This document shows, one piece after another, positions 1,598 through 20,410 of a DNA stretch of 38,565 bases. How positions within the stretch are numbered: the first letter of the stretch is position 1; every line of letters starts with the position of its first letter. Below the pieces are notes generated by a model. It was given only the letters and a program-made list of their open reading frames with translations, was not told the DNA's origin and made no database searches. The DNA is from an uncultured Hyphomicrobiales bacterium (GTDB lineage Bacteria > Pseudomonadota > Alphaproteobacteria > Rhizobiales > Xanthobacteraceae), in the NCBI GenBank assembly GCA_903878085.1, contig CAIRGJ010000014.1:1-38565 (forward strand). The letters run 5' to 3'. A program made the translations under genes and the position numbers.

Positions 1598-1699
1598 GGC
1601 TTCACTTGCTGTTTCATTTGGCGCTGCCCAGCCGGAAAACCGATGCTATACGTTTGTGACGGGCTTTGAAGACCTGAAACAAGTTCTCTAGGGGGCATT

Positions 1700-2863: not shown

Positions 2864-3951
2864 GCGACGCCGTAGGTCTTGAACAGATCGGGCGCGAATT
2901 TCAGCCCGAGGCCGGCGCCGGTCGGCACCGTCATCATGCCTTTGTCCGGCATCGGCGGGTTTTCGAACAGCCGCCAGGTCCACGGCATGTATTCCACCAC
3001 CAGCCCGTTCGGGATGGCGGCGATCAGATGAACGTGAATTTCCGGCAGCAGGTGGCTCGCCACCGGCCGGTTGAAGGCTTCGGCCATGCCGGCGATCTTC
3101 ATCCACTGCGTCACGCCGCCGGCGCGCAATAGATCGACCATGACGATATCGACCGAGTGATGCGCCAGCGTCTGGCGGTGCGGCTCGATGCCGTAGAGAT
3201 ATTCGCCGGCGCAGATCGGCGTGTGCAAGGCGCGGGCGATTTCGGCAAGGCCTTGGTAGTCGTTATGTGCGGCGGGATCTTCAAGCCAGCCGAGGTTTAG
3301 TTCCTCGACCTGGCGGCCGATGGAAATCGCCTCGTGCACGCTCCAGCGCTGGTTGATGTCGACCATCAGGTTGACGTTGGGGCCGACGGCGTCGCGAATG
3401 AGGCGAATGCGCTCGATTTCCTGCGCCGGATTGAGCCCGTCAACGGCCATTTGTGTTTTGATCTGGGTGTAGCCCTTGGCGACCAGTGCTGTGGCTGCGG
3501 CTTCGAGTCTGTCGGTCGGCGTGGTGCGCGTCAGCGCGCCGCTGGCATAGGCGGGGACACGATCGCGCAGGCCGCCGAGCAGGCGGGCGAGCGGCTGGCC
3601 GAAGGCCTTGCCGCGGATGTCCCACAACGCGATGTCGATTGCCGAGATCGCCAGCGCGGCGATGCCGCCGGGGCCGCACGACGCCGAGGCGGCGCGAAGC
3701 TTGGCGGTGACCTGCTCGGTGCGCAGCGGGTCGTCGCCGACGATCAATTCGCCGAATTCCTCCAGCGCGGTTTTCAGCGTCCGCACGATCTTGCCGCCGA
3801 AGGTGGTGACGCCGATGCCCTCGATGCCGTCGTCGGTCATGATCTGCACGGTGAGAAATTCGCGCAGCATGCCGGGCATCGGTGGCGCGCCGACCAGCGG
3901 CTCTTCCAGCGGCAGGCGGACGAGATTGATCGTGACGTGTTGAATTTTCAT
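2860..3951 (-). CDS. Mandelate racemase/muconate lactonizing enzyme family protein (second gene of pair)
   Basis: A 363-residue enolase-superfamily enzyme. Such enzymes abstract the alpha proton of a carboxylate bound to Mg2+ and act as sugar-acid dehydratases, racemases or cycloisomerases. The N-terminal capping domain spans about 1-120. In the barrel the metal ligands are Asp198 (MVDIN), Glu224 (WLEDP) and Glu250 (CAGEY). Likely catalytic bases are Lys165 on the second strand and the His300-Asp273 pair (ASHLLPE; VDLLRAGG). The second strand reads Lys-Thr-Gln where mandelate racemase-like enzymes have Lys-x-Lys. It lies 21 bases after the next gene, probably in one operon. A sugar-acid or other hydroxy-acid dehydratase is the best guess; the substrate cannot be read from sequence. 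Confidence 0.88.
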   Translation of the reverse strand: MKIQHVTINLVRLPLEEPLVGAPPMPGMLREFLTVQIMTDDGIEGIGVTTFGGKIVRTLKTALEEFGELIVGDDPLRTEQVTAKLRAASASCGPGGIAALAISAIDIALWDIRGKAFGQPLARLLGGLRDRVPAYASGALTRTTPTDRLEAAATALVAKGYTQIKTQMAVDGLNPAQEIERIRLIRDAVGPNVNLMVDINQRWSVHEAISIGRQVEELNLGWLEDPAAHNDYQGLAEIARALHTPICAGEYLYGIEPHRQTLAHHSVDIVMVDLLRAGGVTQWMKIAGMAEAFNRPVASHLLPEIHVHLIAAIPNGLVVEYMPWTWRLFENPPMPDKGMMTVPTGAGLGLKFAPDLFKTYGVA

Positions 3952-3972
3952 GGTGGCTCCGGCGCGATGCGT

Positions 3973-5070
3973 TCAATCGACTTTGAGTTTGTCCAGCAGC
4001 GCCAAGTCCGGCTCGATGCCGAGCCCGGGCCCTTGTGGCAGCGTGAGCGCGCCGCCCTTCGGCTCGTACCAGTCGCCGAACGGGCTTTCGCTGAGGTCGC
4101 AATACAGTCGTTCGACCATCGGCGCGCGCGACAGCGCGGCGCTCAGATGCACGGTGGCGATCAGGCCGGGTCCGAAATAAGCGGAATGCGGCGCGACCGC
4201 GACGCTGGCCTGGCTGGCGAGGGCGTAAATGTCGCGCATCACGGAAATGCCGCCGATTTTCGAAACGCTGGGTTGGATGTAATCGACGGCGCGGGTCTCG
4301 ATCAGCCGGGCGAAGTCGGTCGGCGACAGCACGTTCTCGCCGATGGCGACCGGCACGCCGGAGGCGCTGATCTGCGACGCGGCGCGGAAATCCTCCGGCG
4401 GCCAGACCGGCTCTTCGACCCATTTCAGATCGAGTTCGCGCATCGGCGCGGTCGCCGCCAAGGCTTCCTGCAAATTCCACGGCGCGTTGACGTCGACCAT
4501 CAGCGACGCGCCGCTCGTCCGGCGCAACAGCTTCGCGGCGGCGGTGACTTCGCTCAATCCGGTCTCATGCACTTTCAATTCGCGATAACCGCGGCCGAGC
4601 GCATCTTCCGTGGTGCGCGTCACCACCGCGGTGTCGTTGTATTTGAGCAGGCTGGCATAGGCCGGGACTGTCGTGCTCGCCGCGCCGCCGAGCAGTTTAT
4701 AGATCGGCAGGTTGGCAACTTTGCCGAGAATGTCCCACAGTGCGATGTCGAGCCCCGACAGCGCGTACATCACCGGGCCGGCGCGGCCGACGCCGTAAGT
4801 GTGGCGATACAGCTTTCCCATGAGATGGGAAATATCGGTCGGGTCGGCGCCGATGCAGACCGGCGCGATCAGTGTCTCGACAAAGCTTCTGATGCCGGCC
4901 CACACCCGGTGCGGAAAAGCCTCGCCCCAGCCGACGATGCCGGCGTCGGTTTCGACCTTGATCAGTAGCGTCTCGAAGCCGGCGCGGGCTTCGCCGGCGA
5001 ATTTCGGCTGCGGACCTTTGAGGATGAGCTGCTGGCGGTAGACAACGCTCGATACGCGCGTGATTTTCAT
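3973..5070 (-). CDS. Mandelate racemase/muconate lactonizing enzyme family protein (first gene of pair)
   Basis: A 365-residue enolase-superfamily protein, only distantly similar to its operon partner. Metal ligands appear to be Asp193 (MVDVN), Glu219 (WVEEP) and Glu245 (IGEN). The second-strand motif is Lys166-Val-His168 and the seventh-strand base is His295 (APHSAY). The Asp that normally pairs with that His (QPDVS in relatives) is Ser268 (QPSVS), so the His/Asp dyad may be modified. It is the first gene of the minus-strand pair and is divergent from the binding-protein gene at 5212, with 141 bases between them. Racemase, epimerase or dehydratase activity on an acid substrate is possible; no specific reaction can be assigned. 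Confidence 0.88.
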   Translation of the reverse strand: MKITRVSSVVYRQQLILKGPQPKFAGEARAGFETLLIKVETDAGIVGWGEAFPHRVWAGIRSFVETLIAPVCIGADPTDISHLMGKLYRHTYGVGRAGPVMYALSGLDIALWDILGKVANLPIYKLLGGAASTTVPAYASLLKYNDTAVVTRTTEDALGRGYRELKVHETGLSEVTAAAKLLRRTSGASLMVDVNAPWNLQEALAATAPMRELDLKWVEEPVWPPEDFRAASQISASGVPVAIGENVLSPTDFARLIETRAVDYIQPSVSKIGGISVMRDIYALASQASVAVAPHSAYFGPGLIATVHLSAALSRAPMVERLYCDLSESPFGDWYEPKGGALTLPQGPGLGIEPDLALLDKLKVD

Positions 5071-5211
5071 TGCAAAACTGAACCCAGTCCGAACGTTGCG
5101 CAGAATGTCGCCCGGATCATTGTTGGCGCGCTTAATTCAGCCTATCATGACCGCAGGCGGGCGTCATAGCCGCCAACAAAGCCCGGCAAAGGGCGAATGG
5201 GGAGACGCACG

Positions 5212-6237
5212 ATGTCACACAAAATGAACCGGCGAATTGCAATTGCGGCGGTGGCGGCGGGCATCGGCCTGCTGGCGCCTTCGATGGCCGGCGCGCAGAC
5301 GCCGCTCACGGTCAAATTCGTGCAGCAGCGCGGCCTGCTGTATATCCCCGTCGATATGATGGTCAGCGGCGGCATCCTGCAAAAGGAAGCGACCAAACTC
5401 GGGCTCGGCAAAGTCGACGCCACCGTGACGACGCTGAGCGGTCCCGGGCCTGTCACCGACGCGCTGTTGTCGGGCGCAGCCGACTACGGCACCGCGGCGT
5501 TGCCGTCTTTGCTGACCCTGTGGGACAAGACCCACGGCACCGCCAACGAGGTCAAGGCGGTCGGCACCGTGTCGAACGGCGCCATGGTGCTCTACACCAT
5601 CAACCCCAACGTCAAGACCATCGCCGATTTCACCGAGAAGGATCGCATCGCCGTGCCGTCGGTGCGCATTTCGTTCAACGCCATGATGCTGGAAATGGCG
5701 GCGGAGAAGCAGTGGGGCGACCCCCACAAACTCGACCATCTGACGGTCGGGCTAGGCCATCCGGACGCAGTCGCGGCGCTGTCTGCCGGCTACGGCACCG
5801 CCACGGTCACCGCACATATCGCGGTGCAGCCGTTCACCGACCGCGGGCTTAAACTTCCGGGTGCGCACGTGATCGCCGACAGCCGCGAGGTGTTCGGCGG
5901 GCCGCTGACGCAAATTACGCTGCTCGCGACCAAGCAGACCAAAGACAAGAACCCGCTGTTGTTCAAAGCGGTCGCCAATGCGCTGGAAGAATCGATCAAG
6001 GTCGCTAATGCCGACAAGCGCGCCGCCGCCGTGCTCTGGAAAGAGGCCAACAAGGCGAGCGAAAGTGTCGACGAACTAGTCAAGTTGCTCAGCGATCCGG
6101 GCTTCGAGTTCACGGCTGAGCCGCACCGCATCGCCTTTTTTGCGGCGTTCCTCAACCGAATCGGCAATATGAAGTCGAAAGTCGGCGACTGGAAGGAGCT
6201 GTTCTGGGAAACGGCGCACCACCAGAAGGGCGACTGA
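5212..6237 (+). CDS. NitT/TauT-type ABC transporter substrate-binding protein (orphan)
   Basis: A 341-residue periplasmic binding protein of the nitrate/sulfonate/taurine (SsuA/TauA/NMT1-like) type. It has a positively charged start and hydrophobic segment, with likely signal cleavage after AGA at about residue 28. The ATG at 5212 is chosen because GGGGAG sits 7 bases upstream; the earlier in-frame ATG at 5197 overlaps that ribosome site. The mature part opens LTVKFVQQRGLLYIP and contains the ligand-domain segments GAADYGTAALPSLL and KDRIAVPSVRISFN. No permease or ATPase gene is adjacent, and a terminator-like hairpin follows. It may use the NitT/TauT permease and ATPase at 15894-17473. The ligand could be a sulfonate or aromatic acid; this is not resolved. 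Confidence 0.87.
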   Translation: MSHKMNRRIAIAAVAAGIGLLAPSMAGAQTPLTVKFVQQRGLLYIPVDMMVSGGILQKEATKLGLGKVDATVTTLSGPGPVTDALLSGAADYGTAALPSLLTLWDKTHGTANEVKAVGTVSNGAMVLYTINPNVKTIADFTEKDRIAVPSVRISFNAMMLEMAAEKQWGDPHKLDHLTVGLGHPDAVAALSAGYGTATVTAHIAVQPFTDRGLKLPGAHVIADSREVFGGPLTQITLLATKQTKDKNPLLFKAVANALEESIKVANADKRAAAVLWKEANKASESVDELVKLLSDPGFEFTAEPHRIAFFAAFLNRIGNMKSKVGDWKELFWETAHHQKGD

Positions 6238-6268
6238 GTTTCTTGCTGATTTCGTTTATTGATGCCTC

Positions 6269-6312
6269 ATCAAGCCGGCGCGGTTCCATCAGTGGGCAGC
6301 GCCGGCTTTGAT
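6269..6312 (+). terminator. Terminator-like hairpin after the orphan binding-protein gene
   Basis: Starting 31 bases after the stop at 6237, bases 6272-6281 (AAGCCGGCGC) pair perfectly with 6299-6308 (GCGCCGGCTT). The stem extends through ATC/GAT with one bulged T. The loop is 17 bases. Only a weak T-rich stretch follows (GTTTATG). It probably separates transcription of the binding protein from the Mo hydroxylase block. The rest of 6313-6483 is relatively AT-rich and would have to hold the promoter of the next operon; no convincing -35/-10 pair was found. Confidence 0.55.
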
Positions 6313-6483
6313 GTTTATGCCGCATTGCGAAGATCGAATTGTGCGCTGCGAAAAATTGTCGATGGCAATGGAATATCTTTTTAGAACGATTGTTGATTGA
6401 GCACAGTCCGATTACGCTCTTGATATCGGTTTTCATCTGCCTGTCCGGCAGTAGAAGAAAATAAGTCCCGAGGGGGAAACAAA

Positions 6484-6933
6484 ATGATCAATCTCACCAT
6501 CAACGGCAAATCTCATAGCGTCGACGTCGAGCCGGATACACCGCTGCTCTGGGTGATCCGTGACACCATCGGCATGACCGGCACCAAATACGGCTGCGGC
6601 ATCGCGCAATGCGGCGCCTGCACGGTGCACATCGACGGCCAGGCGGTACGCTCCTGCGGCATGACCGTCAGCGACGCGGCCGGCAAGAAGATCACCACCA
6701 TCGAGGGTCTCGCCGACAACGGCGTACTCACCAAGGTGCAGAAGGCCTGGGTCGAACTCGACGTGCCGCAATGCGGCTACTGCCAGAGCGGCATGATCAT
6801 GGCCGTGTCGGCGCTCCTCAAGGAAAAGCCGAAGCCGACCGACGCCGACATCAACGAAGCGATCACCAATATTTGCCGGTGCGGCAGCTTCCAACAAGTG
6901 CGCGCGGCGATCCACGCCGCCGCCAACGCTTAA
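6484..6933 (+). CDS. iorA: [2Fe-2S] small subunit of a molybdenum hydroxylase (IorA/CoxS type)
   Basis: A 149-residue iron-sulfur subunit of a xanthine-oxidase-family molybdenum hydroxylase. The N-terminal plant-type ferredoxin domain has cysteines 38, 43, 46 and 58 ([17 protein letters not shown]). The C-terminal four-helix domain has cysteines 97, 100, 131 and 133 ([13 protein letters not shown]). All eight ligands for two [2Fe-2S] clusters are present and the length is normal. It passes electrons from the Mo site of the large subunit 15 bases downstream. GAGGGGG sits just before the ATG. The two-subunit arrangement without an FAD subunit matches isoquinoline 1-oxidoreductase and related periplasmic aldehyde or heterocycle hydroxylases. 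It has no signal of its own and would be exported with the Tat-tagged partner. Confidence 0.92.
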
Positions 6934-6948
6934 AGGGAGAACGGCACC

Positions 6949-9108
6949 ATGAACGCTATGCCCAAACTCGACCGCCGCTCATTCCTGGTCGGAACCGCCA
7001 CCGCCGGCCTGTCGCTCGGCTTCAACATCCCGTTCCTGAACTCGACCAGCGCGCAAGGCGCGCCCGAGATCAACGCCTGGGTCGTGATCAAGTCGGACGA
7101 CACCGTCATCATCCGCATCGCCCGCTCCGAGATGGGGCAGGGCACGCTCACAGGCCTCGCCCAGATGGTCGCCGAGGAGTTGGAATGCGACTGGTCGAAG
7201 GTCACGACCGAATACCCGACGCCGGGCCAGAGCGTCGCCCGCAAGAATCCGTGGGGCGATTTCGGCACCGGCGGCAGCCGTGGCATCCGCACCTCGCACG
7301 ATTACGTCCGCAAGGGTGGCGCCGCAGCGCGCATGATGCTGATTGCCGCCGCCGCCGGCGAATGGAAGGTGCCGGCCTCGGAATGCAGCGCCGCCAACAG
7401 CGTCATCACGCATAAGGCGTCGAACCGCACCACCACTTACGGCAAGGTCGCCGCCGGGGCGGCGCAGGTCGAACCGCCGGCGGACGTGCCGCTGAAGGAC
7501 CCGAAGGACTGGAAGCTGATCGGCAAGAGCGTCAAGCGGCTCGACACGCTCGACAAGACCACCGGCAAGATGATGTACGGCGCCGACGTGCGGTTGCCGG
7601 GCATGATGTATGCCGCGATCAAGCAGTGCCCGGTGTTCGGCGACAAGGTGAAGAGCTTCGACGCCGCCAAGGTGGCGTCGATGAAGGGCGTCCAGAAGGT
7701 CGTGCAGGTCGGCGACAGCGCCGTCGCGGTGGTCGCCGATAGCTGGTGGCGCGCCAAGACCGCGCTCGATGCGATGCCGATCGTCTGGGACAATGGTCCG
7801 AATGCCAAGGTCTCGAGCGAGAGCATCGGCAAATGGCTCAAGGAAGGCCTCGATGCCGAGCAGGCCTTCGTCAACAACAAGAACGGCGACGTCAAAGCCG
7901 GCCTCGCCTCGGCGGCCAAGACCGTGGTGCAGGACTACGCTTATCCCTACCAGAACCACGCCTGCATGGAGCCGTTGAACGCCACGGCGGTCTACACCGC
8001 CGACAAATGCGAAGTGTGGTGCGGCACCCAGCACGGCCAGGCCGCATTCGCGGCGGTGCTCGAAGCCTCGGGCCTGCCGGCGAGCAAGGTCGAGGTCTAC
8101 AAGATGATGCTCGGCGGCGGCTTCGGCCGCCGCGGCCGCTCCGACTATGTCACGCAAGCGGTGCTGATCGCCAAGCAGATGCCCGGCACGCCGGTCAAGC
8201 TGTTGTGGTCGCGCGAAGAGGACATGCAGCACTGCAGCTATCATCCGATCACGCAGTGCCGGATGTCGGCGGGCCTCGACGATAAGGGCAACCTCACGTC
8301 GTTGCACGTGAGGTTGTCGGGCCAGTCGATCCTCACCGCGTTGCGGCCGGAAGCGCTGGTCAACGGCATGGATCCGGCGACCTTCGCCGGACTGTCGCCA
8401 ACCGGCGAGGCGGCGATCGGTTACAGCGTGCCGAACCTCTTGGTCGACCACTCGATGCGCAATCCGCATGTGCCGCCGGGCTTCTGGCGCGGCGTCAACG
8501 TCAACCAGAACGCCATCTATCTCGAGTCCTTCATGGACGAGTTGGCCAAGGAAGCCGGCGTCGATCCGCTGGAATTCCGCCGCCGGCTGATGGCGAAATA
8601 TCCCAAACACCTCGGCGTTCTTAACGCCGTGGCCAACGGCATCGGCTGGGACAAGCCGGCGCCGGCCGGCGTGCACCGTGGTATCGCCCAGTTCATGGGC
8701 TACGGCAGCTACGTCGCCGCCGCCGCGGAAGTGTCGGTGACCGGCAACAAGGTGAAAATCCACCGCCTCGTGGCCGCGACCGACCCGGGTTACGCCGTTA
8801 ACCCAGGTCAGATCGAGCGGCAGATTGCCGGCTCGTTCGTCTACGGGCTGTCGGCCTTGTTCATGGGCGAGTGCACCGTCAAGGACGGCGCCATCGAGCA
8901 GAGCAATTTCGACAATTACGACTCGATGCGGATCGCGCAAATGCCGAAGGTGGAATGCATCGTCATGCCGTCCGGCGGCTTCTGGGGCGGTGTCGGCGAA
9001 CCGACCATCTGCGTGGCGCCGCCGGCGGTGCTCAACGCCATCTCTGCGGCGACCGGCAAGCGTTACCGCACATTCCCGCTCAAGAACCATGGGCTGACCA
9101 TGGCATGA
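6949..9108 (+). CDS. iorB: Molybdopterin-binding large subunit of a periplasmic molybdenum hydroxylase (IorB type)
   Basis: A 719-residue catalytic subunit of the isoquinoline-1-oxidoreductase beta/aldehyde dehydrogenase type, using molybdopterin cytosine dinucleotide. It starts with a twin-arginine leader (Arg9-Arg10, DRRSFLVG, then a hydrophobic stretch ending near SAQG at about residue 37), so the folded complex is expected in the periplasm. Cofactor motifs are GGGFGRRG (389-396) and GFWRGV (511-516); the catalytic Glu is Glu684 in GVGE. AGGGAGA precedes the ATG. No XdhC-type maturation factor and no cytochrome c subunit, the common electron acceptor of such enzymes, lies next to it. Instead the FccB and Sox genes follow on the same strand. 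Enzyme class is firm; the substrate (N-heterocycle, aldehyde or other) is unknown. Confidence 0.92.
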   Translation: MNAMPKLDRRSFLVGTATAGLSLGFNIPFLNSTSAQGAPEINAWVVIKSDDTVIIRIARSEMGQGTLTGLAQMVAEELECDWSKVTTEYPTPGQSVARKNPWGDFGTGGSRGIRTSHDYVRKGGAAARMMLIAAAAGEWKVPASECSAANSVITHKASNRTTTYGKVAAGAAQVEPPADVPLKDPKDWKLIGKSVKRLDTLDKTTGKMMYGADVRLPGMMYAAIKQCPVFGDKVKSFDAAKVASMKGVQKVVQVGDSAVAVVADSWWRAKTALDAMPIVWDNGPNAKVSSESIGKWLKEGLDAEQAFVNNKNGDVKAGLASAAKTVVQDYAYPYQNHACMEPLNATAVYTADKCEVWCGTQHGQAAFAAVLEASGLPASKVEVYKMMLGGGFGRRGRSDYVTQAVLIAKQMPGTPVKLLWSREEDMQHCSYHPITQCRMSAGLDDKGNLTSLHVRLSGQSILTALRPEALVNGMDPATFAGLSPTGEAAIGYSVPNLLVDHSMRNPHVPPGFWRGVNVNQNAIYLESFMDELAKEAGVDPLEFRRRLMAKYPKHLGVLNAVANGIGWDKPAPAGVHRGIAQFMGYGSYVAAAAEVSVTGNKVKIHRLVAATDPGYAVNPGQIERQIAGSFVYGLSALFMGECTVKDGAIEQSNFDNYDSMRIAQMPKVECIVMPSGGFWGGVGEPTICVAPPAVLNAISAATGKRYRTFPLKNHGLTMA

Positions 9109-9173
9109 TAAGACACGGGCAACCGCCCGCGTCTTCTCGGCACCAAGCGCGTCATCAAACTCGGGATGCGCCT

Positions 9174-10466
9174 ATGAAAAAAGATCGCGCGACAAGACGC
9201 GACATTCTGAAAACTGCAATGGCGGCTTCGGCCGCCATTTTTCCTTTGCCCGGCTTTCCTTTGCCCGCCTTGGCGCAAGCGGCCAAGGCGCGCGTCGTCG
9301 TCATCGGCGGCGGCTTCGGCGGCGCGGCTTGCGCCCGCGCGCTCAAGCGCGCCGACGGCAAGCTTGTCGTGACGCTGGTCGAGCCCAACCGCGTCTATAC
9401 CGCGTGTCCGATGAGCAATGCGGCCATCGCAGGATTGCGCGATCTGACACTGCAGGAGTTCGGTTACGGCCGCATCGCGGTGGACGGCGTCGAGATGGCA
9501 TACGCCGCGGCGGAAGCCATCGATGCCGCGGCGCGCGCCGTGACGCTCAGCGGCGGACAAAGGCTGGAATACGACCGGCTGGTGCTGGCGCCCGGTATCG
9601 ATTTCCGCTGGGAGGCATTGCCCGGCTATTCGCGCGAGGCTGCCGCCGTGATGCCGCATGCCTGGACCGGCGGCGACCAGATCGCGCTGCTGACACGGCA
9701 GATCGCGGCGATGGACGACGGCGGCGTGGTGGTGATCTCGGTGCCGGTGACGCCGTCGCGTTGCCCGCCGGCGCCCTACGAGCGCGCCAGCCTGATTGCG
9801 CATATGCTGAAAGTCCGCAAGCCGCGCTCCAAGGTGATCGTGCTCGATGCCAAGGATGCCTTCACGATGCAGCGCCAGTTCCAGGGTGCCTGGAAGCAGC
9901 TTTATCCGGGCATCCTCGAATATGTCTCGCTGTCGGATGGCGGGCTGGTGACTGCGGTCGAAGCTGCGACCAGAACCGTGACGACCGATTTCGATAAATA
10001 CACCCCGGCTGTCGCCAACATTATCCCGCAGCAGAAGGCCGGGCGCATCGCCGAGATCGCCGGCGTCGCCGACCGTACCGGCTGGTGTCCGGTCGATCCG
10101 GTGACGTTCGAATCGCGGCTGCAGCCGAATATCCACGTCATCGGCGACGCCGCGATTGCCGGCGCGATGCCGCGCTCGGCGTCGGCGGCGAGTTCGCAGG
10201 CGAAAATCTGCGCTGCGGCGGTGGCGACGCTGTTGGCCGGCAACACGCCGCCAGCGCCGACCCTGACCAGTACGTGCTTCAGCCTGATCGCGCCGGACTA
10301 TGCCATCTCGCAGGCCGGCCGCTACCAGCCGGTCGGCGATCTCTACACCGAGGTCGAGGGCAGCGCTGCGATCAGCCCGGCCGATGCGCCGCAGGGGTTG
10401 CGCGCCAGGGAAGCGCGGGACACCGACGCCTGGTTCACAGCCACCACCGCGGAGGTGTTCGGGTGA
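9174..10466 (+). CDS. fccB: Sulfide-dehydrogenase flavoprotein subunit (FccB/SoxF)
   Basis: A 430-residue FAD protein clearly of the flavocytochrome c sulfide dehydrogenase family, which oxidises sulfide or persulfide and passes electrons to a c-type cytochrome. It has a twin-arginine leader (Arg8-Arg9, TRRDILK), the Rossmann motif VVVIGGGFGGAA (41-52), Cys78 in TACPMSN (position of the FAD-linked Cys), and redox cysteines Cys197 (SRCPPAPYERAS) and Cys305 (GWCPVD). The C-terminal part contains the family segment FSLIAPDYAIS. The ATG at 9174 is preferred because the leader begins there; the open frame upstream overlaps iorB and is not coding. No FccA cytochrome gene is adjacent; SoxX begins within its stop codon, so a SoxF role is likely. 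Confidence 0.92.
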   Translation: MKKDRATRRDILKTAMAASAAIFPLPGFPLPALAQAAKARVVVIGGGFGGAACARALKRADGKLVVTLVEPNRVYTACPMSNAAIAGLRDLTLQEFGYGRIAVDGVEMAYAAAEAIDAAARAVTLSGGQRLEYDRLVLAPGIDFRWEALPGYSREAAAVMPHAWTGGDQIALLTRQIAAMDDGGVVVISVPVTPSRCPPAPYERASLIAHMLKVRKPRSKVIVLDAKDAFTMQRQFQGAWKQLYPGILEYVSLSDGGLVTAVEAATRTVTTDFDKYTPAVANIIPQQKAGRIAEIAGVADRTGWCPVDPVTFESRLQPNIHVIGDAAIAGAMPRSASAASSQAKICAAAVATLLAGNTPPAPTLTSTCFSLIAPDYAISQAGRYQPVGDLYTEVEGSAAISPADAPQGLRAREARDTDAWFTATTAEVFG

Positions 10467-10918
10467 CGCGCGCCGTAAGCCTTGCCGCCGCGATCTTCAC
10501 CGCGCTTGCAGGCGGCGGCTTTGGCCTTGCCGACGAACTTCGGCCGTACCAAATCGCCGGCGGCGCCATCGCCGTTTCACTGACCGGGACGCCGGGCGAC
10601 GCGGCGCGCGGCCGCGCCATCGTGGTCAACCGGACGGTCGGGCTGTGTCTGCTGTGTCATTCCGGCCCGTTTCCGGAAGAGCGGTTCCAGGGCAATCTAG
10701 CGCCCGACCTGACGGGGAGCGGCGCGCGCTGGTCGGTGGGCGAGTTGCGGCTGCGCATGGTCGACAGCCATAAGCTCAATGCCGACACGATTATGCCGGC
10801 CTATTATGCTGTCGATGGCCTCAACCGAGTGGCGCCGGCCTTTCGCGGCAAGCCGCTATTGACCGCCGAACAGATCGAGGACGTGGTGGCCTTTCTTGCC
10901 ACGCTGCGCGGCCAATGA
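10463..10918 (+). CDS. soxX: Sulfur-oxidation cytochrome c subunit SoxX
   Basis: A 151-residue monoheme cytochrome c, one half of SoxXA, which attaches sulfur substrates to the SoxY cysteine. A GTG start overlapping the fccB TGA (GTGA) is chosen because a Sec-type leader (hydrophobic, ending near GFGLADE) begins exactly there; the longer upstream frame lies inside fccB. The heme motif is CLLCH at about residues 61-65. The distal Met ligand is in DTIMPAYY, the usual SoxX arrangement. It is translationally coupled to fccB and overlaps the soxY start. Length and motifs are normal for SoxX. Confidence 0.9.
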   Translation: MTRAVSLAAAIFTALAGGGFGLADELRPYQIAGGAIAVSLTGTPGDAARGRAIVVNRTVGLCLLCHSGPFPEERFQGNLAPDLTGSGARWSVGELRLRMVDSHKLNADTIMPAYYAVDGLNRVAPAFRGKPLLTAEQIEDVVAFLATLRGQ

Positions 10919-11394
10919 AGAGATCACGCATGGATGCACCAGGCACGACGCGGCGCGAGGTTCTGATCGGCGCGCTGGCCGGCGGCCTGGTCGCGACCTT
11001 CGGCGCCGCGCCTGCGCGGGCGACCCCCGACGAAATGCGCGCGGCGATCCGCAAGGTTGTCGGCACCGCCCAGGTCCGCAAAGGCCGCATCGATCTCGAC
11101 GTGCCGCCGCTGGTAGAGAACGGCAACACGGTGTCGCTGGTCATCACCGTCGACAGCCCGATGACTGCGACCGACTACGTCAAGTCGATCCACGTGTTCA
11201 ACGAAAAGAACCCGCAGCCCAACGTCATCGGCATTCGTCTCGGGCCGCGCGCCGGCAAGGCGAAAATCGCTACGCGGTTTCGGCTGGCTGATACGCAGAT
11301 GATCACGGCGATCGCCGAAATGAGCGACGGCAGCTTCTGGTCGGCGAGCGCGGAGTTGATCGTCACCATGGCCGCTTGCGTAGAGGGTCTGTAG
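10915..11394 (+). CDS. soxY: Thiosulfate-oxidation carrier SoxY, with atypical C-terminus
   Basis: SoxY carries sulfur intermediates on a C-terminal cysteine and works as a SoxYZ heterodimer in the periplasm. This 159-residue protein has a twin-arginine leader (TTRREVLIG) and the SoxY beta-sandwich domain, including the segment FNEKNPQPNVIG. The canonical C-terminal arm is GGCGG; here the protein ends MAACVEGL, with a single Cys155 followed by four residues. No alternative frame restores GGCGG. The ATG at 10915 overlaps the soxX stop (ATGA); ATG 10930 is an alternative start five codons later and also keeps the leader. soxZ begins directly after its stop. The carrier role is probable, but the substrate arm is altered. 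Confidence 0.88.
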   Translation: MKRSRMDAPGTTRREVLIGALAGGLVATFGAAPARATPDEMRAAIRKVVGTAQVRKGRIDLDVPPLVENGNTVSLVITVDSPMTATDYVKSIHVFNEKNPQPNVIGIRLGPRAGKAKIATRFRLADTQMITAIAEMSDGSFWSASAELIVTMAACVEGL

Positions 11395-11715
11395 ATGGCC
11401 CGCCCGTTGATCAATGTGCCGGCCAAGGTCAAACGCGGCCAGGTGTTCGAGATCAAGACGCTGATCTCGCACATCATGGAGACCGGCTTCCGCTACACCA
11501 CCACCGGTCAACGCATTCCGCGCGACATCATCACGTTCTTCTCGTGCAGCTATAACGGCGAGGAGATTTTCAGCGCCGATTTTTATCCGGCGGTGTCCGC
11601 CAATCCGTTCCTCACGTTTTACACGGTGGCCACCGAAAGCGGCACGCTGGAATTTAAATGGATAGGCGATAACGGATTTTCCGAAACCGCCAGCGTCCCG
11701 GTCACGGTGGAATGA
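11395..11715 (+). CDS. soxZ: Thiosulfate-oxidation carrier partner SoxZ
   Basis: A 106-residue SoxZ, the partner that cradles the SoxY arm. It has no signal peptide, as is normal, because it is exported bound to SoxY. The family signature is visible in VKRGQVFEIKTLISHIMETG near the N-terminus and in the central segment from FSCSYNGEEIF to FYPAVSANP. The ATG directly follows the soxY stop and the stop overlaps the soxA start (ATGA), so soxXYZA should be translated as a unit. Confidence 0.93.
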   Translation: MARPLINVPAKVKRGQVFEIKTLISHIMETGFRYTTTGQRIPRDIITFFSCSYNGEEIFSADFYPAVSANPFLTFYTVATESGTLEFKWIGDNGFSETASVPVTVE

Positions 11716-12497
11716 CCGGGTCTTTGCCGCGCTGCTTGATTGTTGCGATTGCGCTCGCGGCCTGCGTTGCCTCGGCCAACGGAGGCGACATTCCGCTCGA
11801 CCAGCGCCGTTCCGGCTACGCCGATCTCGGCCGCGACACCAAGGCGATGCAAGACGACGACACCAGCAATCCGGCGACGCTGTGGGTGCTCGACGGCGAG
11901 GCGCTGTGGAACCAAAAGGCCGGCAGCGCCAACCGCGCCTGCGCCGAGTGTCACGGCGACGCAACAGCGAGCATGAAGGGCGTGGCGGCGCGCTATCCGG
12001 CGTTCGACGCGGTGCAAAAGAGCCCGATCGATCTCGAACAGCGTATCAACTTGTGCCGCACCGAACGGCAGAACGCGACGCCGTTCGCCTTCGAAAGCCA
12101 CGAATTGCTGGCGCTGACGGCGTTCATCGGGCGCCAGTCGCGCGGCATGCCGATTGTCTCAACCGATGAGAAGCTGAAGCCCGCCATCGAGGCCGGGCGC
12201 AAGCTGTTTATGCAGCGCATTGGGCAGATTGATATGAGCTGCGCGCAATGCCATGACGACAATTGGGGCAAGCATCTCACCAGCAGCCTGGTGCCGCAGG
12301 GCCACCCGACCGGCTACCCGATCTATCGGTTGGAGTGGCAGAATCTCGGCTCGCTGCAGCGGCGCTTACGCAACTGCATGATCGGGATGCGCGCCGAGCC
12401 TTTCGACTATGGCGCGCCGGAAGCCGTGGCGCTGGAGGCCTATCTGATGTGGCGGGCGCGGGGGCTGCCGGTGGAGACGCCGGCCGTGCGGCCCTAG
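11712..12497 (+). CDS. soxA: Sulfur-oxidation diheme cytochrome SoxA
   Basis: A 261-residue SoxA, the catalytic cytochrome of SoxXA, which oxidatively couples the sulfur substrate to SoxY. A Sec-type leader covers about residues 1-23. Two heme motifs are intact, CAECH (77-81) and CAQCH (177-181), placing it in the diheme class. Cys115 is the likely ligand of the first heme. Cys222 in LRNCMIGMRAEP is the likely active-site cysteine that becomes a persulfide. It is the last gene of the plus-strand block and ends one base before the stop of the convergent MBL gene. soxB does not follow. Confidence 0.92.
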   Translation: MTGSLPRCLIVAIALAACVASANGGDIPLDQRRSGYADLGRDTKAMQDDDTSNPATLWVLDGEALWNQKAGSANRACAECHGDATASMKGVAARYPAFDAVQKSPIDLEQRINLCRTERQNATPFAFESHELLALTAFIGRQSRGMPIVSTDEKLKPAIEAGRKLFMQRIGQIDMSCAQCHDDNWGKHLTSSLVPQGHPTGYPIYRLEWQNLGSLQRRLRNCMIGMRAEPFDYGAPEAVALEAYLMWRARGLPVETPAVRP

Positions 12498-12498
12498 A

Positions 12499-13374
12499 TC
12501 AGAAGCGCGGGCGGAATCCGGCCGCCGTCTTGTCGATGAAACCGGCGAACGGCGCGCCGACGTGGCCCGGAAACACCATCGCGCCGGCGGCGGCGCAATC
12601 CTCGAACACGCGGCGGCGGCTGACGCGGGCCTCTTCGGCATCCGAGTTCTTGGGGAAATTCCAGTCCGGATAGAAAATCTGCAGCAGGTGATGGAACACG
12701 TCGCCGGTGATCATGGCGGTGCTGCTGCCGAAATTCATCTTGAACACGAAGTGTCCCGGCGAGTGGCCGCCGGCCGGCAGGATTTCGATGAACTCATTGA
12801 GCCGGTGCGGCCCGGTAACCAGATCGGCGCGGCCGGCATCGACCACCGGAATGACGCATTCGCGGAAAGTGCCGAACTCGGCCGGGCCGGTCGCCGGATC
12901 GGCGTCGAGCTTCTGGAAGTAATCGAAATCGAGTTTCGAGAAGACGTAGCGGGCGTTGGGGAAGGTCGGCACCCACTTGCCGTCGCGCAACTGCGTGTTC
13001 CAGCCGAGGTGATCGTGGTGCAAATGCGTGCACATCACCATGTCGATTTCGTCCGGCCGCGCGCCGGCCGCCGCCAGCCGGTCGAGCCACGGCGTGTTGA
13101 GCATGTTCCAGAACGGGCGGGCCGGCCGCGGTTTGTGATTGCCGCAGCAGCAATCGATCAGGATCTTGCGGCCGTCGACTTGCAGCAGCCAACTATGGAC
13201 GCTGAGCATGATCTTGCCGCTGGCGGGATCGTAGTGGTTGGGCGCGAGCCAGGGGCCGTGCTCCTTGAGGTCAGCGTCGCTGAACGCCGGAAAGATGTCG
13301 CGGATCGGATAGACCGCCTGATAGGTCTCCTCGATCCGCGTGATCGTTGCTTTGCCGACCTTGAAGACTGACAT
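12499..13374 (-). CDS. MBL-fold metallo-hydrolase
   Basis: A 291-residue metallo-beta-lactamase-fold hydrolase. The dinuclear zinc site is visible as His117, His119, Asp121 and His122 (THLHHDHLGW), His204 (AGGHSPGH), Asp225 (TGDVFHH) and His271 (FPGHVG). The shape resembles lactonase-like members and could hydrolyse a lactone or ester. It lies 27 bases downstream of the SDR gene at 13402-14196 on the same strand and is probably cotranscribed. It converges on soxA. A SoxH role was considered because sox clusters can carry MBL proteins, but its opposite strand and SDR partner argue against that. Confidence 0.88.
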   Translation of the reverse strand: MSVFKVGKATITRIEETYQAVYPIRDIFPAFSDADLKEHGPWLAPNHYDPASGKIMLSVHSWLLQVDGRKILIDCCCGNHKPRPARPFWNMLNTPWLDRLAAAGARPDEIDMVMCTHLHHDHLGWNTQLRDGKWVPTFPNARYVFSKLDFDYFQKLDADPATGPAEFGTFRECVIPVVDAGRADLVTGPHRLNEFIEILPAGGHSPGHFVFKMNFGSSTAMITGDVFHHLLQIFYPDWNFPKNSDAEEARVSRRRVFEDCAAAGAMVFPGHVGAPFAGFIDKTAAGFRPRF

Positions 13375-13401
13375 CGCTCCCCCCGGTTAGTTTGGTGAAG
13401 C

Positions 13402-14196
13402 CTACCACAGGCCCTTGAGCCGGCCGCCGTCAAGATTGAGCGAGACGCCGGTGATGTAACTGGCGCGTTCCGAGCACAGGAACACGGTGGCGTTCGCCAG
13501 TTCTTCCGGCTTGCCCATGCGGCCCAACGAATTCTTCTTGGCCGCCAGCTTGCGGACTTCCTCCTCGGAGGTGACGTTGAGCTCTTTCTTGAGGCCTTCG
13601 GTGTTCTGCACCCAGAGATTGGTCGCGACCCAGCCGGGGCAGATGGCATTGACCAGCACATTGTCGGGGCCGAACTCTTCCGACAGCGACTTGGTCAGGT
13701 TCAACAGCGCGCTATTGGTGATGGCGCTGCCGAACATATAGGGGTCCGGCTCCTTGCCGGCGCCGCCGATGGTGTTGACGATGCGGCCCCACTTCTGCGC
13801 CGCCATCAGCGGATAGACGAGACGGATGGCGCGCATGAAGCCGAACAGCTTGGTCTCGAGCTGGTTCTTCAACTCGTCGTCCTTGAGCGCGGCGAAGCGG
13901 CCGGAATACATCGTGCCGGCGTTGTTGATGAGAATATCGACGCCGCCGAGCTTTTCTTTCGCGGTATCGACCATGCGCTGGATGTCGGCTTCGTTGCGCA
14001 TGTCGACCTGCACGGCATGCACTTCGCCGCCGGTCTTCTTGGCTAGTTCGTCGCGCGCCTTGTTGATCTTGTCGAGCGTGCGGCCTGCAATCAGGACGCG
14101 CACGCCTTCCTCAAGAAACTGCCGCGCGGTCTCGTAGCCGATGCCGCTGCCGCCGCCGGTGACGATCGCGCGCTTGCCCTTGATGCCTAGGTCCAT
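13402..14196 (-). CDS. SDR-fold protein with non-canonical catalytic tetrad (first of three)
   Basis: A 264-residue short-chain dehydrogenase/reductase-fold protein. The cofactor motif TGGGSGIG (13-20) and the NNAG strand are intact. The usual tetrad Asn-Ser-Tyr-Lys is replaced: Lys116 (LETKLFG) for Asn, Gly144 (NTIGG) for Ser, Ser157 for Tyr and Asn161 for Lys (SAITN where YxxxK is expected, with 13-residue spacing from Gly144 kept). The same changes occur in the next two genes. The ATG at 14196 is chosen for its MDLG start, shared with both relatives; the longer frame upstream is antisense to the next SDR. It is divergent from that SDR and leads an operon with the MBL protein. NAD(P) binding is likely; the chemistry is uncertain. 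Confidence 0.85.
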   Translation of the reverse strand: MDLGIKGKRAIVTGGGSGIGYETARQFLEEGVRVLIAGRTLDKINKARDELAKKTGGEVHAVQVDMRNEADIQRMVDTAKEKLGGVDILINNAGTMYSGRFAALKDDELKNQLETKLFGFMRAIRLVYPLMAAQKWGRIVNTIGGAGKEPDPYMFGSAITNSALLNLTKSLSEEFGPDNVLVNAICPGWVATNLWVQNTEGLKKELNVTSEEEVRKLAAKKNSLGRMGKPEELANATVFLCSERASYITGVSLNLDGGRLKGLW

Positions 14197-14217
14197 GTCT
14201 CGTTCCTTCCCTTTGGC

Positions 14218-14251
14218 TTGACGCCTTTGACTCATCCATAGAGTATTTGAC
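14218..14251. promoter_or_regulatory. TTGAC repeats between divergent SDR genes (possible regulator or promoter elements)
   Basis: The 91-base divergent spacer 14197-14287 holds three TTGAC copies, at 14218, 14227 and 14247. The second and third lie in TTTGAC units exactly 20 bases apart. They could be a direct-repeat operator or -35 boxes for the plus-strand SDR operon. No matching -10 box was convincing, so the role is open. Confidence 0.25.
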
Positions 14252-14287
14252 CAACCTCTTACATCATAAGAAAAGCGAGGGGGAGGG

Positions 14288-15094
14288 ATGGATCTCGGCC
14301 TTCGTGGCAAAGTCGCCTTAGTCACCGGCGCATCGCGCGGAATCGGCAAGGCGGTTGCCCAATCACTCATCGATGAAGGCTGCCGCGTTGCGATCTGCGC
14401 GCGCGATGGCGAGCGTTTGCGCGCCGCCGTCGCGGAGCTTTCACATGGCGCAAACGGTTCAATCGCAGATTGCGTTATTGGGGTGCCCACCGATGTCACC
14501 GACGAGGCGGCGGTGAAAAATTTCGTCGCTACCGCGCACAAGGCATTCGGCCGCATCGATATTCTGGTCAACAACGCCGGCACGCACCTGCGCGGTACCG
14601 TGGACACCACAACGCTCGATATTCTGGAGCGGCAATTGCGCGACAAAGTGTTCGGGTTTTTCGCCATGATCCAGGCGGTGCTGCCGATCATGCGCAACCA
14701 GAAAGACGGCCGCATCGTCAATATCATCGGCCAGGCGGCGCGGCATCCGCACCCCGACCGCTTTCCGTCCGGTGTGACCAACGCCGCCTGCATGGCACTG
14801 ACAAAATCGGTCGCCGACGCCGTGGCGCGTGACAACATTCGCGTCAACGCGGTCTGCCCGCAATACATCGAATCCGAACTGCTGGCCTCGCTGATCGACA
14901 AAGAGATGCGCGAGCGCAAGGTCGACCGCGCCACCGCGGCCGGCGGCTTCTCGCGCGCCAATCCGCTGGGGCGCACCGGCGCCCCGCAGGAAGTCGCCGA
15001 TCTGGTGTCGTTTCTGGTGTCCGACAGCGCGAACTTCGTCGCCGGCAGTTCGATCAGCATCGATGGCGGCTATCATCGTTATGTGTTCGGTTAA
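14288..15094 (+). CDS. SDR-fold protein with non-canonical catalytic tetrad (second of three)
   Basis: A 268-residue SDR-fold protein beginning MDLGLRGKVALVTG with TGASRGIG (13-20) and NNAG intact. Active-site positions read Lys120 (LRDKVFG), Gly148 (NIIGQAA), Ser161 and Asn165 (SGVTN) in place of Asn, Ser, Tyr and Lys. The C-terminal SISIDGG segment is normal. A strong ribosome site (GGGGGAGGG) precedes the ATG. It opens a plus-strand operon: SDR, SDR, NitT/TauT-type ATPase, permease and binding protein. Proteins of this type are usually annotated as 3-oxoacyl-ACP reductases, but the missing Tyr/Lys make that function doubtful. It may act on the compound imported by the linked transporter. 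Confidence 0.87.
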   Translation: MDLGLRGKVALVTGASRGIGKAVAQSLIDEGCRVAICARDGERLRAAVAELSHGANGSIADCVIGVPTDVTDEAAVKNFVATAHKAFGRIDILVNNAGTHLRGTVDTTTLDILERQLRDKVFGFFAMIQAVLPIMRNQKDGRIVNIIGQAARHPHPDRFPSGVTNAACMALTKSVADAVARDNIRVNAVCPQYIESELLASLIDKEMRERKVDRATAAGGFSRANPLGRTGAPQEVADLVSFLVSDSANFVAGSSISIDGGYHRYVFG

Positions 15095-15102
15095 GGCGGA
15101 TC

Positions 15103-15882
15103 ATGGACCTCGGACTCACCAATAAAGTGGCGCTGGTCACCGGTGGCAGCAGCGGCATCGGCCTGGCGATCGCGGAAAAGCTCGCGGCCGAAGGCTGCAA
15201 GGTGGCAATCGCCGGCCGCGACAAGGCCAAGCTCGAGGCCGCGGCCGTCGGCATTCCGGGCGCGCGGGCCTTTGCCGGCGATGTGCGCGAGCCGGGCCAA
15301 GTTGCGCGTCTCGTCGATGACGTCATCGCCGCGTTCGGCCGTGTCGATATCGTCGTCAGCAATGCCGGTACGCATCTGCCGGGCCGCATGGAAGACGTCG
15401 CGACCGACGCGCTGCTGCGCCATCTCGAGACCAAAGTGATCGGCGCCTGGGAATTGGCCAAGTGCGTGACGCCGCACATGCGCAAGCAGGGCGGCGGCCG
15501 TTTCATCGTCATCATAGGGCAGGCCGGCAAGGTGCCGCAGGCGAATGGCATCGCATCGACCATCAGCAATGCCGCGCAGCACGCCTTCGTGAAATCGCTG
15601 TCGGACGATCTCGCCCGCGACAATATTCTGGTCAACGCGGTGTGCCCGAGCCGTATCAAGAGCCCGCTGACCGATGCGCTCGGCCATCTCTACAACGAGG
15701 TCTATTACGGCCGCAGCCTGGAGCAGCAGGAGTCGCGCTGGGGCGCGGAGGTGCCGCTCGGCCGCTGGGGCACGCCCGAGGACATCGCCAATGCCGTGGC
15801 CTTCCTGGCGTCGGATCGTGCCGCCTTTATCGTCGGCGCCAACATCGATGTCGATGGCGGCCACCAGCGTTCGATCTTTTGA
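15103..15882 (+). CDS. SDR-fold protein with non-canonical catalytic tetrad (third of three)
   Basis: A 259-residue SDR-fold protein 8 bases after the previous gene. The cofactor loop is TGGSSGIG (13-20), with SNAG instead of NNAG. Tetrad positions are Lys111 (LETKVIG), Gly139 (VIIGQAG), Ser152 and Asn156 (STISN). The three SDRs therefore share the same set of replacements while differing elsewhere, so this is a conserved subfamily rather than decay. The next gene, a transporter ATPase, starts 11 bases later. The reaction is unknown. Confidence 0.87.
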   Translation: MDLGLTNKVALVTGGSSGIGLAIAEKLAAEGCKVAIAGRDKAKLEAAAVGIPGARAFAGDVREPGQVARLVDDVIAAFGRVDIVVSNAGTHLPGRMEDVATDALLRHLETKVIGAWELAKCVTPHMRKQGGGRFIVIIGQAGKVPQANGIASTISNAAQHAFVKSLSDDLARDNILVNAVCPSRIKSPLTDALGHLYNEVYYGRSLEQQESRWGAEVPLGRWGTPEDIANAVAFLASDRAAFIVGANIDVDGGHQRSIF

Positions 15883-15893
15883 CGGCCGCCCGC

Positions 15894-16664
15894 ATGATCG
15901 AAATCCGCAATGTTTCCAAAGGCTTCCGGCGGGGCGACCATGTCGTCGAAGCGTTGCGCGATTTCAATCTGACCATCGGCAAGCATGAAGTCATTGCTAT
16001 CATCGGGCCGAGCGGCTGCGGCAAGTCCACGCTGCTGAACATGATCGCCGGGCTCTATATGCCGAGCAAAGGCCGCGTCATCTACAAGGGCGCGGCGGTC
16101 ACCGACGTCAACACCGATGTCGGTTACATGACGCAGAAGGACAATCTGCTGCCGTGGCGCAATGTGCGCGACAATATCGCCTTTCCGCTGGAGCTTGCCG
16201 GTGTCGACAAGGCCGAGCGCGAGGCGCGGGCCGATGCCGTCGTCAAGCAGGTCGGCCTCGACGGTTTCGAGACGCGGTTCCCGACCGAGCTATCCGGCGG
16301 CATGCGCAAGCGCGCTTGCTTGGCCCGCATGATGTTGTACGGCGCGGAAACCGCGCTGCTCGACGAACCGTTCGCCGCGCTCGACGCCCAGCTCAAGCTG
16401 GTGATGCATGAATTGCTGCTGCGGCTGGCGGCGGACAGTGGACAAACCGTTGTCTTCGTGACCCACGATCTGATGGAAGCGGTCACGCTCGCGGATCGCG
16501 TCATCGTCTGCACGCGGCGGCCGGCGATGATCGCGCTCGAGCAGGAGATTCCGCTACCGCGGCCACGCGACGTGCTCAACGTGCGGTTCACGAATGAGTT
16601 TAAGGAACTCTACGACGCCTTGTGGGAGCGCCTGCGCGTGGAATATCAAGAGGAGCGGGTGTGA
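15894..16664 (+). CDS. NitT/TauT-type ABC transporter ATP-binding protein
   Basis: A 256-residue ATPase of the nitrate/sulfonate/taurine (SsuB/TauB) type, energising import through the permease encoded next. Walker A GPSGCGKST (38-46), Q-loop Gln81 (TQKDNLLPW), signature LSGGM (133-137), Walker B LLDEP (155-159) and the switch His191 (VTHD) are present. The QKDNLLPW form of the Q-loop is usual for this subfamily. ATG 15894 (MIEIRNVSKGF) is taken as the start because the family begins there; the open frame further upstream overlaps the SDR gene. Its stop overlaps the permease GTG start. Confidence 0.92.
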   Translation: MIEIRNVSKGFRRGDHVVEALRDFNLTIGKHEVIAIIGPSGCGKSTLLNMIAGLYMPSKGRVIYKGAAVTDVNTDVGYMTQKDNLLPWRNVRDNIAFPLELAGVDKAEREARADAVVKQVGLDGFETRFPTELSGGMRKRACLARMMLYGAETALLDEPFAALDAQLKLVMHELLLRLAADSGQTVVFVTHDLMEAVTLADRVIVCTRRPAMIALEQEIPLPRPRDVLNVRFTNEFKELYDALWERLRVEYQEERV

Positions 16665-17473: not shown

Positions 17474-17509
17474 CGGCAAAGAACAACAAATCTCCGGGAG
17501 GAGCGCGTC

Positions 17510-18490: not shown

Positions 18491-18511
18491 GCCTAAGCGT
18501 TCGCTACTTCG
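18483..18511. terminator. Inverted repeat spanning two convergent stop codons
   Basis: CGAAGTAG (18483-18490) is perfectly repeated in inverse as CTACTTCG (18504-18511) with a 13-base loop. Each arm contains the TAG or its complement that ends the binding-protein gene and upp, so it may act as a bidirectional terminator. There is no T-tract, so this is tentative. Confidence 0.35.
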
Positions 18512-19133: not shown

Positions 19134-19152
19134 GACAAACTCCTGTTGCCGG

Positions 19153-20388: not shown

Positions 20389-20410
20389 GGGATCGCCCGG
20401 TCTCTTTCGC

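Follow-up and report, generated by a model that had tools for sequence, protein, structure and literature searches.

The canonical Sox system is built from SoxXA, SoxYZ, SoxB and SoxCD, and sox genes are commonly taken as evidence of thiosulfate oxidation. Here we describe a block in which soxX, soxY, soxZ and soxA keep different company. It lies in a contig of an uncultured Hyphomicrobiales bacterium (GenBank assembly GCA_903878085.1, contig CAIRGJ010000014.1; the whole stretch of 38,565 nucleotides is called the window), where iorA, iorB, fccB, soxX, soxY, soxZ and soxA form a single tight plus-strand run from 6484 to 12497. The block shares with the canonical system SoxX, SoxA, SoxZ and a carrier of the SoxY type that bears one carrier cysteine. 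It differs in having neither SoxB nor SoxC in the window and in the swinging arm of the carrier, which reads AACVEGL instead of GGCGG. Its partner, the molybdenum (Mo) hydroxylase IorAB, is predicted to oxidise carbon.

Altered Sox carriers have been described beside other enzymes. Both symbionts and free-living bacteria carry divergent SoxY proteins and fused SoxYZ proteins near pyrroloquinoline quinone (PQQ) alcohol, methanol and formate dehydrogenases, and parts in the metabolism of carbon or organosulfur compounds have been proposed for them (PMC11237559). For the SoxYZ-like carrier of the Pseudomonas ped cluster, an accessory or protective function is discussed (PMC12997753). SoxYZ-S2, SoxYZ-S4 and TIGR04557 resemble our block in linking an altered-arm SoxYZ carrier to a carbon-oxidising dehydrogenase (PMC11237559, PMC12997753). 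Those systems, however, are SoxYZ fusions near SoxH and PQQ enzymes. In our block two genes encode SoxY and SoxZ, a Mo hydroxylase is the partner, and SoxXA and FccB occur as well. Against the TIGR04557 cut-off of 140 bits, the separate genes of the window score 57.6 (SoxY) and 39.5 bits. Bradyrhizobium diazoefficiens has two soxY genes, of which soxY1 alone is needed for thiosulfate oxidation (PMC5748708).

The enzymes of the block have relatives of their own. FccB is like the flavoprotein of FccAB or SoxF, conserved cysteines included, except that fccA does not stand beside fccB here. IorAB is compared with isoquinoline 1-oxidoreductase and with the aldehyde dehydrogenase of PDB 8gy3, whose large subunit (chain C) aligns with IorB over almost the full length of IorB; we take 8gy3 to be an acetic-acid-bacterium enzyme with a cytochrome subunit. 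The block has no such multi-haem cytochrome subunit and carries the Sox set in its place. The window SoxY belongs by score to TIGR04487, an NCBIfam family that names the protein only and not a system. A text search of the available literature gave no mention of TIGR04487, 'SoxY-related' or 'AACIE arm', and no description of an iorAB-fccB-soxXYZA block appeared in the titles and abstract openings searched, which included few subscription papers. As far as that literature reaches, the block is new as a described combination, although its SoxY variant had already been named by NCBI.

We compared the block across genomes and weighed what it might do. We conclude that IorAB and SoxXYZA (and FccAB) very probably form one dedicated functional system. 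The features of the block are as follows.

6484..6933, plus strand: iorA, [2Fe-2S] subunit of a xanthine-oxidase-family Mo hydroxylase (Pfam Fer2 and Fer2_2); no leader seen.
6949..9108, plus strand: iorB, molybdopterin subunit (MoCoBD_1/2), with a twin-arginine translocation (Tat)-type leader.
8998..9000, plus strand: codon of IorB Glu684 in the GGVGE motif; GG[VF]GE is found in 70 of 71 IorB.
9174..10466, plus strand: fccB, flavocytochrome c sulfide dehydrogenase flavoprotein (FCSD_central, FCSD-flav_bind), with a Tat-type leader.
10463..10918, plus strand: soxX, monohaem cytochrome with a GTG start and a secretory (Sec)-type leader (TIGR04485, 75.3 bits, cut-off 61).
10915..11394, plus strand: soxY, AACIE-arm SoxY paralogue with a Tat-type leader (TIGR04487, 209.2 bits, cut-off 172).
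11371..11391, plus strand: swinging arm of SoxY in its altered form, AACVEGL; the carrier cysteine is Cys155, codon 11377-11379.
11395..11715, plus strand: soxZ, carrier partner subunit (TIGR04490, 84 bits, cut-off 76); no leader seen.
11712..12497, plus strand: soxA, dihaem cytochrome (TIGR04484, 238.3 bits, cut-off 110; 1h31_A, E 5.5e-47), with conserved Cys222.
6268..6313, plus strand: inverted repeat 5' of the block, found by eye (arms 6268-6281 and 6299-6313, 17-nt loop), a possible terminator of the preceding gene.

Successive genes from iorA to soxA are spaced by 15, 65, -4, -4, 0 and -4 bp, from which we infer that all seven may be co-transcribed. An earlier note on this DNA had described seven genes in one plus-strand block with the Sox genes overlapping or abutting, and the coordinates bear it out. 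The leaders that it named, judged by reading the sequence, are there too: twin-arginine (RR) motifs occur in IorB, FccB and SoxY and Sec-like starts in SoxX and SoxA. The absence of SoxB was likewise borne out, since tblastn of the genome's own SoxB against the window gave no match; SoxC gave none either, and SoxD was not searched for. The 'terminator-like hairpin' of that note survives as an inverted repeat, but it is weaker as a terminator than was implied: its loop is 17 nt long and it lacks a strong T run. A terminator scan restricted to loops of 3-8 nt did not report it.

How firmly does the Mo enzyme belong with the carrier? A scan of public genomes with the window SoxY returned 309 relatives, and the loci of the best 80 of the 309 were fetched. 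With 19 set aside for short flanks, the full seven-gene order is found in 57 of the 61 that remain (L and G numbers below are our handles for loci and genomes, C numbers for contigs). The other four lack fccB (L006, L026), soxA (L010), or fccB, soxX and soxA together (L008). Titles among the 57 include Bradyrhizobium, Tardiphaga, Reyranella, Microvirga and Enterovirga; two are titled Rokuibacteriota and could be binning errors. Among 198 sampled genomes of the window's family, a SoxY over the TIGR04487 cut-off (an AACIE SoxY) occurs in 66, at 67 places. An IorB lies on the same strand within 9 kb at 61 or more of these 67, counted among the matches listed, down to 51% identity. For the six places with none among the matches listed, the IorB is adjacent but inverted (G276) or on another contig (G401, G402, G342), the SoxY stands at a contig end (G320), or only a 41% paralogue is among those matches (G312). 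Farther afield, an AACIE SoxY is present in 12 of 249 genomes of an order sample and 15 of 398 of a phylum sample, two samples that overlap. Four of those 15 are genomes of 1.7-2.1 Mb from another class, with iorAB-soxXYZA and no fccB.

This conservation, which the earlier note itself had proposed to test, lends strong support to the note's core inference of a Mo enzyme acting together with the Sox carrier. The note had also allowed that iorAB and soxXYZA might be neighbours in this genome only, which is not so. Chance neighbourhood is rejected on the same two counts, the order in 57 of 61 loci and the IorB near at least 61 of 67 SoxY places.

The carrier itself is distinctive. Against TIGR04488, the model for true SoxY, the window protein reaches 100.9 bits, short of the cut-off of 125. 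It passes TIGR04487 ('SoxY-related AACIE arm protein') with 209.2 bits against 172, and its C-terminus is AACVEGL, not GGCGG. What the earlier note called soxY is therefore a SoxY-type carrier but not a true SoxY. The tail [AQG]AC-x-[ED] ends 79 of the 80 fetched relatives (the exception is L004) and a GGC tail none of them, and the carrier cysteine is kept in 81 of 81 aligned sequences, the window included. Twenty further SoxYs of the group that goes with IorB, the cassette group, end in AAC, SAC, GAC or PAC, and 19 of the 20 have the block's IorB in the same stretch. The GGCGG tail, in contrast, is present in 24 of 24 SoxYs grouped as canonical and in 0 of the 45 cassette SoxYs compared.

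When 78 SoxYs were placed in a careful tree, a single branch (support 96/93, recovered in 95% of bootstrap trees) separated all 45 cassette rows from the rest. This grouping survives the removal of the last nine residues in a second tree, with a Shimodaira-Hasegawa approximate likelihood ratio test (SH-aLRT) value of 89. Both trees draw on 24 of the 80 loci, the window and loci fetched later, with L098-L109 left out and, in the second, L146, L154 and L156 as well. Some labels need a comment. L090 owes its cassette label to a weak match with a distant paralogue of IorB; the upstream genes of L090 itself lie off the contig. L140, L141, L145 and L147 count as canonical though their stretches hold no SoxB match; SoxB is at most 0.5 kb away in the genome for the first two, and the last two rest on their Sox neighbours and tail. 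In eight loci whose SoxY falls below the TIGR04487 cut-off (L110-L115, L124, L125), iorAB adjoins soxY in all eight; these were chosen for a match reaching the end of the model and are not a random sample. The comparison supports a specialised carrier, in which an arm with [A/S/G/P]AC instead of GGCGG sets the IorB-linked SoxYs apart from the canonical ones. Another SoxY variant, with tails such as GGCAG, GGCVG and GGCLT, occurs with fccB and soxZ in L148, L151, L152, L153 and L157; a separate soxX or soxA was not found in those stretches.

Is the block simply part of thiosulfate oxidation? The assembly (4.41 Mb in 64 contigs, 99.29% complete) gives SoxB family matches only on contigs C36 and C30. 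On C36, SoxB (856.9 bits), SoxC, a SoxX-SoxA fusion, SoxZ and a GGCGG SoxY form one strand-wise run, all over NCBIfam cut-offs. A SoxD-like reading adjoins soxC by eye, and the frame submitted to the family search gave no match. The genome-wide search for soxB and soxC that the earlier note had called for thus finds both, and because they belong to this separate Sox set, thiosulfate oxidation appears to have a locus of its own. In the family sample, a SoxB over cut-off occurs in 48 of the 66 AACIE-SoxY genomes and is missing from the other 18, 10 of which are rated at least 94% complete. The four small genomes that carry the block all have SoxB. Because the GGC tail occurs in 0 of 80 relatives against GGCGG in 24 of 24 canonical SoxYs, and because a SoxB over cut-off is missing in 18 of 66 genomes, the block would not be thiosulfate Sox. 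To judge from this distribution, it is not bound to thiosulfate Sox (INDEPENDENCE from SoxB), though it usually co-occurs with SoxB.

What might IorAB oxidise? The pair has the hallmarks of the xanthine oxidase family, a subunit with two [2Fe-2S] clusters and a molybdenum cofactor (Moco) subunit with GGxGE. All eight cluster cysteines are present in 66 of 66 aligned IorA, that of the window included; our own pattern for the second cluster matched 0 of 65 and was too strict, the alignment columns showing the cysteines in place. The GG[VF]GE motif is retained in 70 of 71 IorB, and we take Glu684 within the window's GGVGE to be the catalytic base. The best solved relative is 8gy3_C, an aldehyde dehydrogenase large subunit (E 6.3e-72, 246 bits; the runner-up has 86 bits), and the match spans residues 6-712. 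Matches of IorA and IorB to NCBIfam equivalogs for xanthine, aldehyde, CO and related enzymes all fall below the cut-offs. The name IorAB is taken from the earlier note; no isoquinoline model matched. The evidence supports reading IorAB as a Tat-type Mo/2x[2Fe-2S] hydroxylase, free of flavin adenine dinucleotide (FAD), nearest an aldehyde dehydrogenase, and aldehydes are its candidate substrates.

IorB also occurs apart from the carrier. Some IorBs of 56-63% identity stand away from any AACIE SoxY, and one of 71% identity is found in a genome without an AACIE SoxY (G356, L089). In a quick IorB tree (25 of the 80 loci requested; L003 was dropped as too gappy and L019 is 11% filled), seven of those of 56-63% identity form one Sox-less clade nested among Sox-linked IorBs, so loss of the Sox genes is the likelier direction. 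Four of these seven loci (L086, L087, L094, L096) have by eye a separate cytochrome c gene beside iorA, that of L096 checked with Pfam. Between 44 Sox-linked and 7 Sox-less sequences, only four fixed differences passed our thresholds and no cysteine is peculiar to the Sox-linked IorBs. One of the four falls in the GGGFG/GGSFG loop, which we take to lie at the molybdenum site. The nested clade favours an IorAB that acts on a free substrate, though the Sox-less clade may have shifted substrate.

Several genomes hold more than one IorB. At six SoxY places a pair of same-strand iorB copies falls inside the 9 kb limit, and one of the genomes concerned has a third slightly farther out. L095 has three successive iorB genes (66-7818; 75, 71 and 51% identity to that of the window) before one fccB-soxXYZA set. 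Copies of 67% identity lie on other contigs in G425, G415 and G269.

The sulfur proteins of the block appear intact. FccB matches the flavoproteins of 5n1t (5n1t_A, E 4.6e-121), 3vrd and 1fcd. Its Cys197 is conserved in 73 of 73 aligned sequences and Cys368 in 72 of 73, and we take this pair to be redox-active; two cysteine patterns of our own matched 3 of 72 and 33 of 72 and were too strict, since the alignment columns showed the cysteines. SoxA Cys222, presumably the active-site haem ligand, is found in 77 of 79 aligned sequences. These alignments support a SoxXA that retains its haem and active cysteines. The gap of 65 bp between iorB and fccB leaves no fccA beside fccB in the window, and fccA was not searched for elsewhere in the genome. 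The earlier note had pointed out that no cytochrome c is encoded beside iorAB. This is true here, yet 31 of 66 relatives carry a small cytochrome c gene between iorB and fccB. FccB itself is missing between iorB and soxX in four of the 70 fetched loci with both genes (L006, L026 and, among those set aside for short flanks, L018 and L019), and also from L008 and, as fetched, from L112, L114, L115, L117 and L120-L125. Weak soxX scores in fetched loci are artefacts, the soxX model weakly matching the soxY frame.

We propose, tentatively, that the block is a dedicated periplasmic oxidation system distinct from thiosulfate Sox, with a split-pathway chemistry in which IorAB handles an aldehyde and Sox and FccAB the sulfur; we give this reading rather less than an even chance. 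The substrate would be some small organosulfur molecule that either is itself an aldehyde with reduced sulfur or gives rise to the two. IorAB would oxidise the aldehyde carbon to the acid. SoxXA would attach the thiol or sulfide to the cysteine of SoxY by oxidative coupling, as canonical SoxXA does with thiosulfate, and FccAB, where present, would oxidise sulfide or persulfide. Electrons would pass to cytochrome c through SoxXA or FccA. The part of this account that comes from sequence comprises the proteins present, their likely export, the conservation of their catalytic residues and the fact that they are inherited together. Should the proposed chemistry prove right, organic sulfur and carbon oxidation would be linked in a new way in Bradyrhizobium, Reyranella and others. 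Surveys of genomes and metagenomes may overcount thiosulfate oxidisers, because four usual Sox markers, soxX, soxY, soxZ and soxA, occur in the block together with a different arm and a partner predicted to oxidise carbon, and no SoxB over cut-off is present in 18 of the 66 genomes with this SoxY.

One source that would give both an aldehyde and sulfide is methanethiol. SBP56 is the methanethiol oxidase family, and methanethiol oxidase yields formaldehyde and sulfide. A gene for SBP56 lies 2.5-5.6 kb past soxA in 8 of the 80 loci, all titled Bradyrhizobium (for example L030, 10531-11928), and within about 10 kb of soxY in G171, G194 and G216. In the family sample it is present in 14 of the 66 AACIE-SoxY genomes against 8 of the 132 others (Fisher p 0.003, uncorrected for shared ancestry). 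The association is a weak lead to the substrate. A universal link to methanethiol oxidase finds no support.

Several observations weigh against the split-pathway reading. No SBP56 match occurs in 52 of the 66 AACIE-SoxY genomes, this genome among them, so methanethiol is at best one case, and the link to SBP56 may reflect shared ancestry, all eight loci being titled Bradyrhizobium. Beyond the core, no gene family appears in more than 24 of 82 loci (the 80 fetched plus two of the genome's own, scored as stop-to-stop frames with the core placed imperfectly, so that only larger contrasts were used), and no transporter or downstream enzyme among them indicates a substrate. FccB is not essential everywhere, since the loci named above do without it. 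The 48 SoxB-bearing genomes of the 66, together with the four small ones, make cross-talk with thiosulfate oxidation possible. Finally, the GGGFG/GGSFG loop of IorB differs from that of the Sox-less clade, so the two need not share substrates.

The principal rival builds on the earlier note's idea of oxidation on the carrier. SoxXA would join an organic thiol to the AACxE arm in a mixed disulfide, and the group so bound would be oxidised by IorAB, for which the arm would be shaped in place of SoxB and SoxCD. The change of arm accompanies IorAB in the loci where both are visible; L008 keeps only iorAB-soxYZ, with no soxX or soxA nearby; and the paired iorB copies at six SoxY places look as if several enzymes used one carrier. 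The Sox-less IorAB clade nested in the quick tree speaks the other way, as do the mere four fixed positions and the want of a peculiar cysteine, and we are not aware of any member of this enzyme family that works on a substrate bound to a carrier, which we count against the idea. We consider it unlikely, though a serious contender. Slightly more doubtful is the same idea in its general form, a widespread, SoxB-independent periplasmic pathway in which a Mo hydroxylase oxidises an organic group held covalently on a specialised, SoxXA-loaded SoxYZ arm. If true, such a pathway would be a sulfur-protein counterpart of carrier-bound metabolism.

Alternatively, the Sox proteins might only support IorAB, by accepting its electrons or by maintaining it, whether through removal of inhibitory sulfur or re-supply of the Mo-sulfido ligand. 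In favour of this, the block of the four small genomes shows no cytochromes other than SoxX and SoxA, and SoxYZ-like carriers beside PQQ and methanol dehydrogenases have been proposed to be protective or accessory (PMC12997753, PMC11237559). A supporting role is nevertheless improbable: the Sox-less IorAB clade manages without Sox proteins, a SoxXA that is complete and keeps its active cysteines points to catalysis, and the genome has one XdhC-family gene over cut-off (contig C41), found in the search that the earlier note had suggested and encoding the usual cofactor chaperone. In L110 (9609-15085) and L111 (9869-14899), genes that by eye resemble xdhC and molybdenum-cofactor-synthesis genes follow the block on the same strand.

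It is less probable again that IorAB replaces SoxB and SoxCD in an inorganic route, oxidising SoxY-bound sulfur from thiosulfate or sulfide. FccB and SoxXA are indeed sulfur enzymes with intact active sites, and 18 of the 66 genomes lack a SoxB over cut-off. IorAB, however, keeps the carbon-hydroxylase motif GG[VF]GE in 70 of 71 sequences, and B. diazoefficiens needs only soxY1 of sox locus I for thiosulfate oxidation (PMC5748708), which would weigh against the route were its soxY2 of the AACIE type.

That unrelated genes merely share an operon is very improbable: the titles and abstract openings searched showed no link between them, but 57 of 61 loci retain the order, which extends to other families and to a second class, and the carrier arm is distinctive. 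The earlier note's further alternative, a degraded copy of a complete sox operon, can be dismissed, for although a separate Sox locus with SoxB and SoxC does exist on C36, the block has open frames, active-site cysteines that match those of its relatives and a SoxY of a separate clade found in many genomes.

The genes around the block can be described briefly. A lone SsuA/NMT1-type substrate-binding protein (5197-6237) precedes iorA and is kept beside the block in the close relatives L004 and L005. Farther upstream (1700-5070) lie a flavin mononucleotide (FMN)-dependent alpha-hydroxy acid dehydrogenase and two mandelate-racemase-type proteins of the enolase superfamily. A lactonase-like metallo-hydrolase and three short-chain dehydrogenases follow soxA (12499-15882) and are kept, at 85-97% identity, only in the close relatives L003-L005. 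Next come an NMT1/SsuA-type ATP-binding cassette (ABC) transporter (15945-18490) and, on the other strand as far as 21667, a uracil phosphoribosyltransferase, a DUF1688 protein and a GTP cyclohydrolase II-like protein. The genes from 15945 to 21667 resemble what we take to be the URC uracil-degradation set, and it may be pyrimidines, not the Sox block, that the transporter serves.

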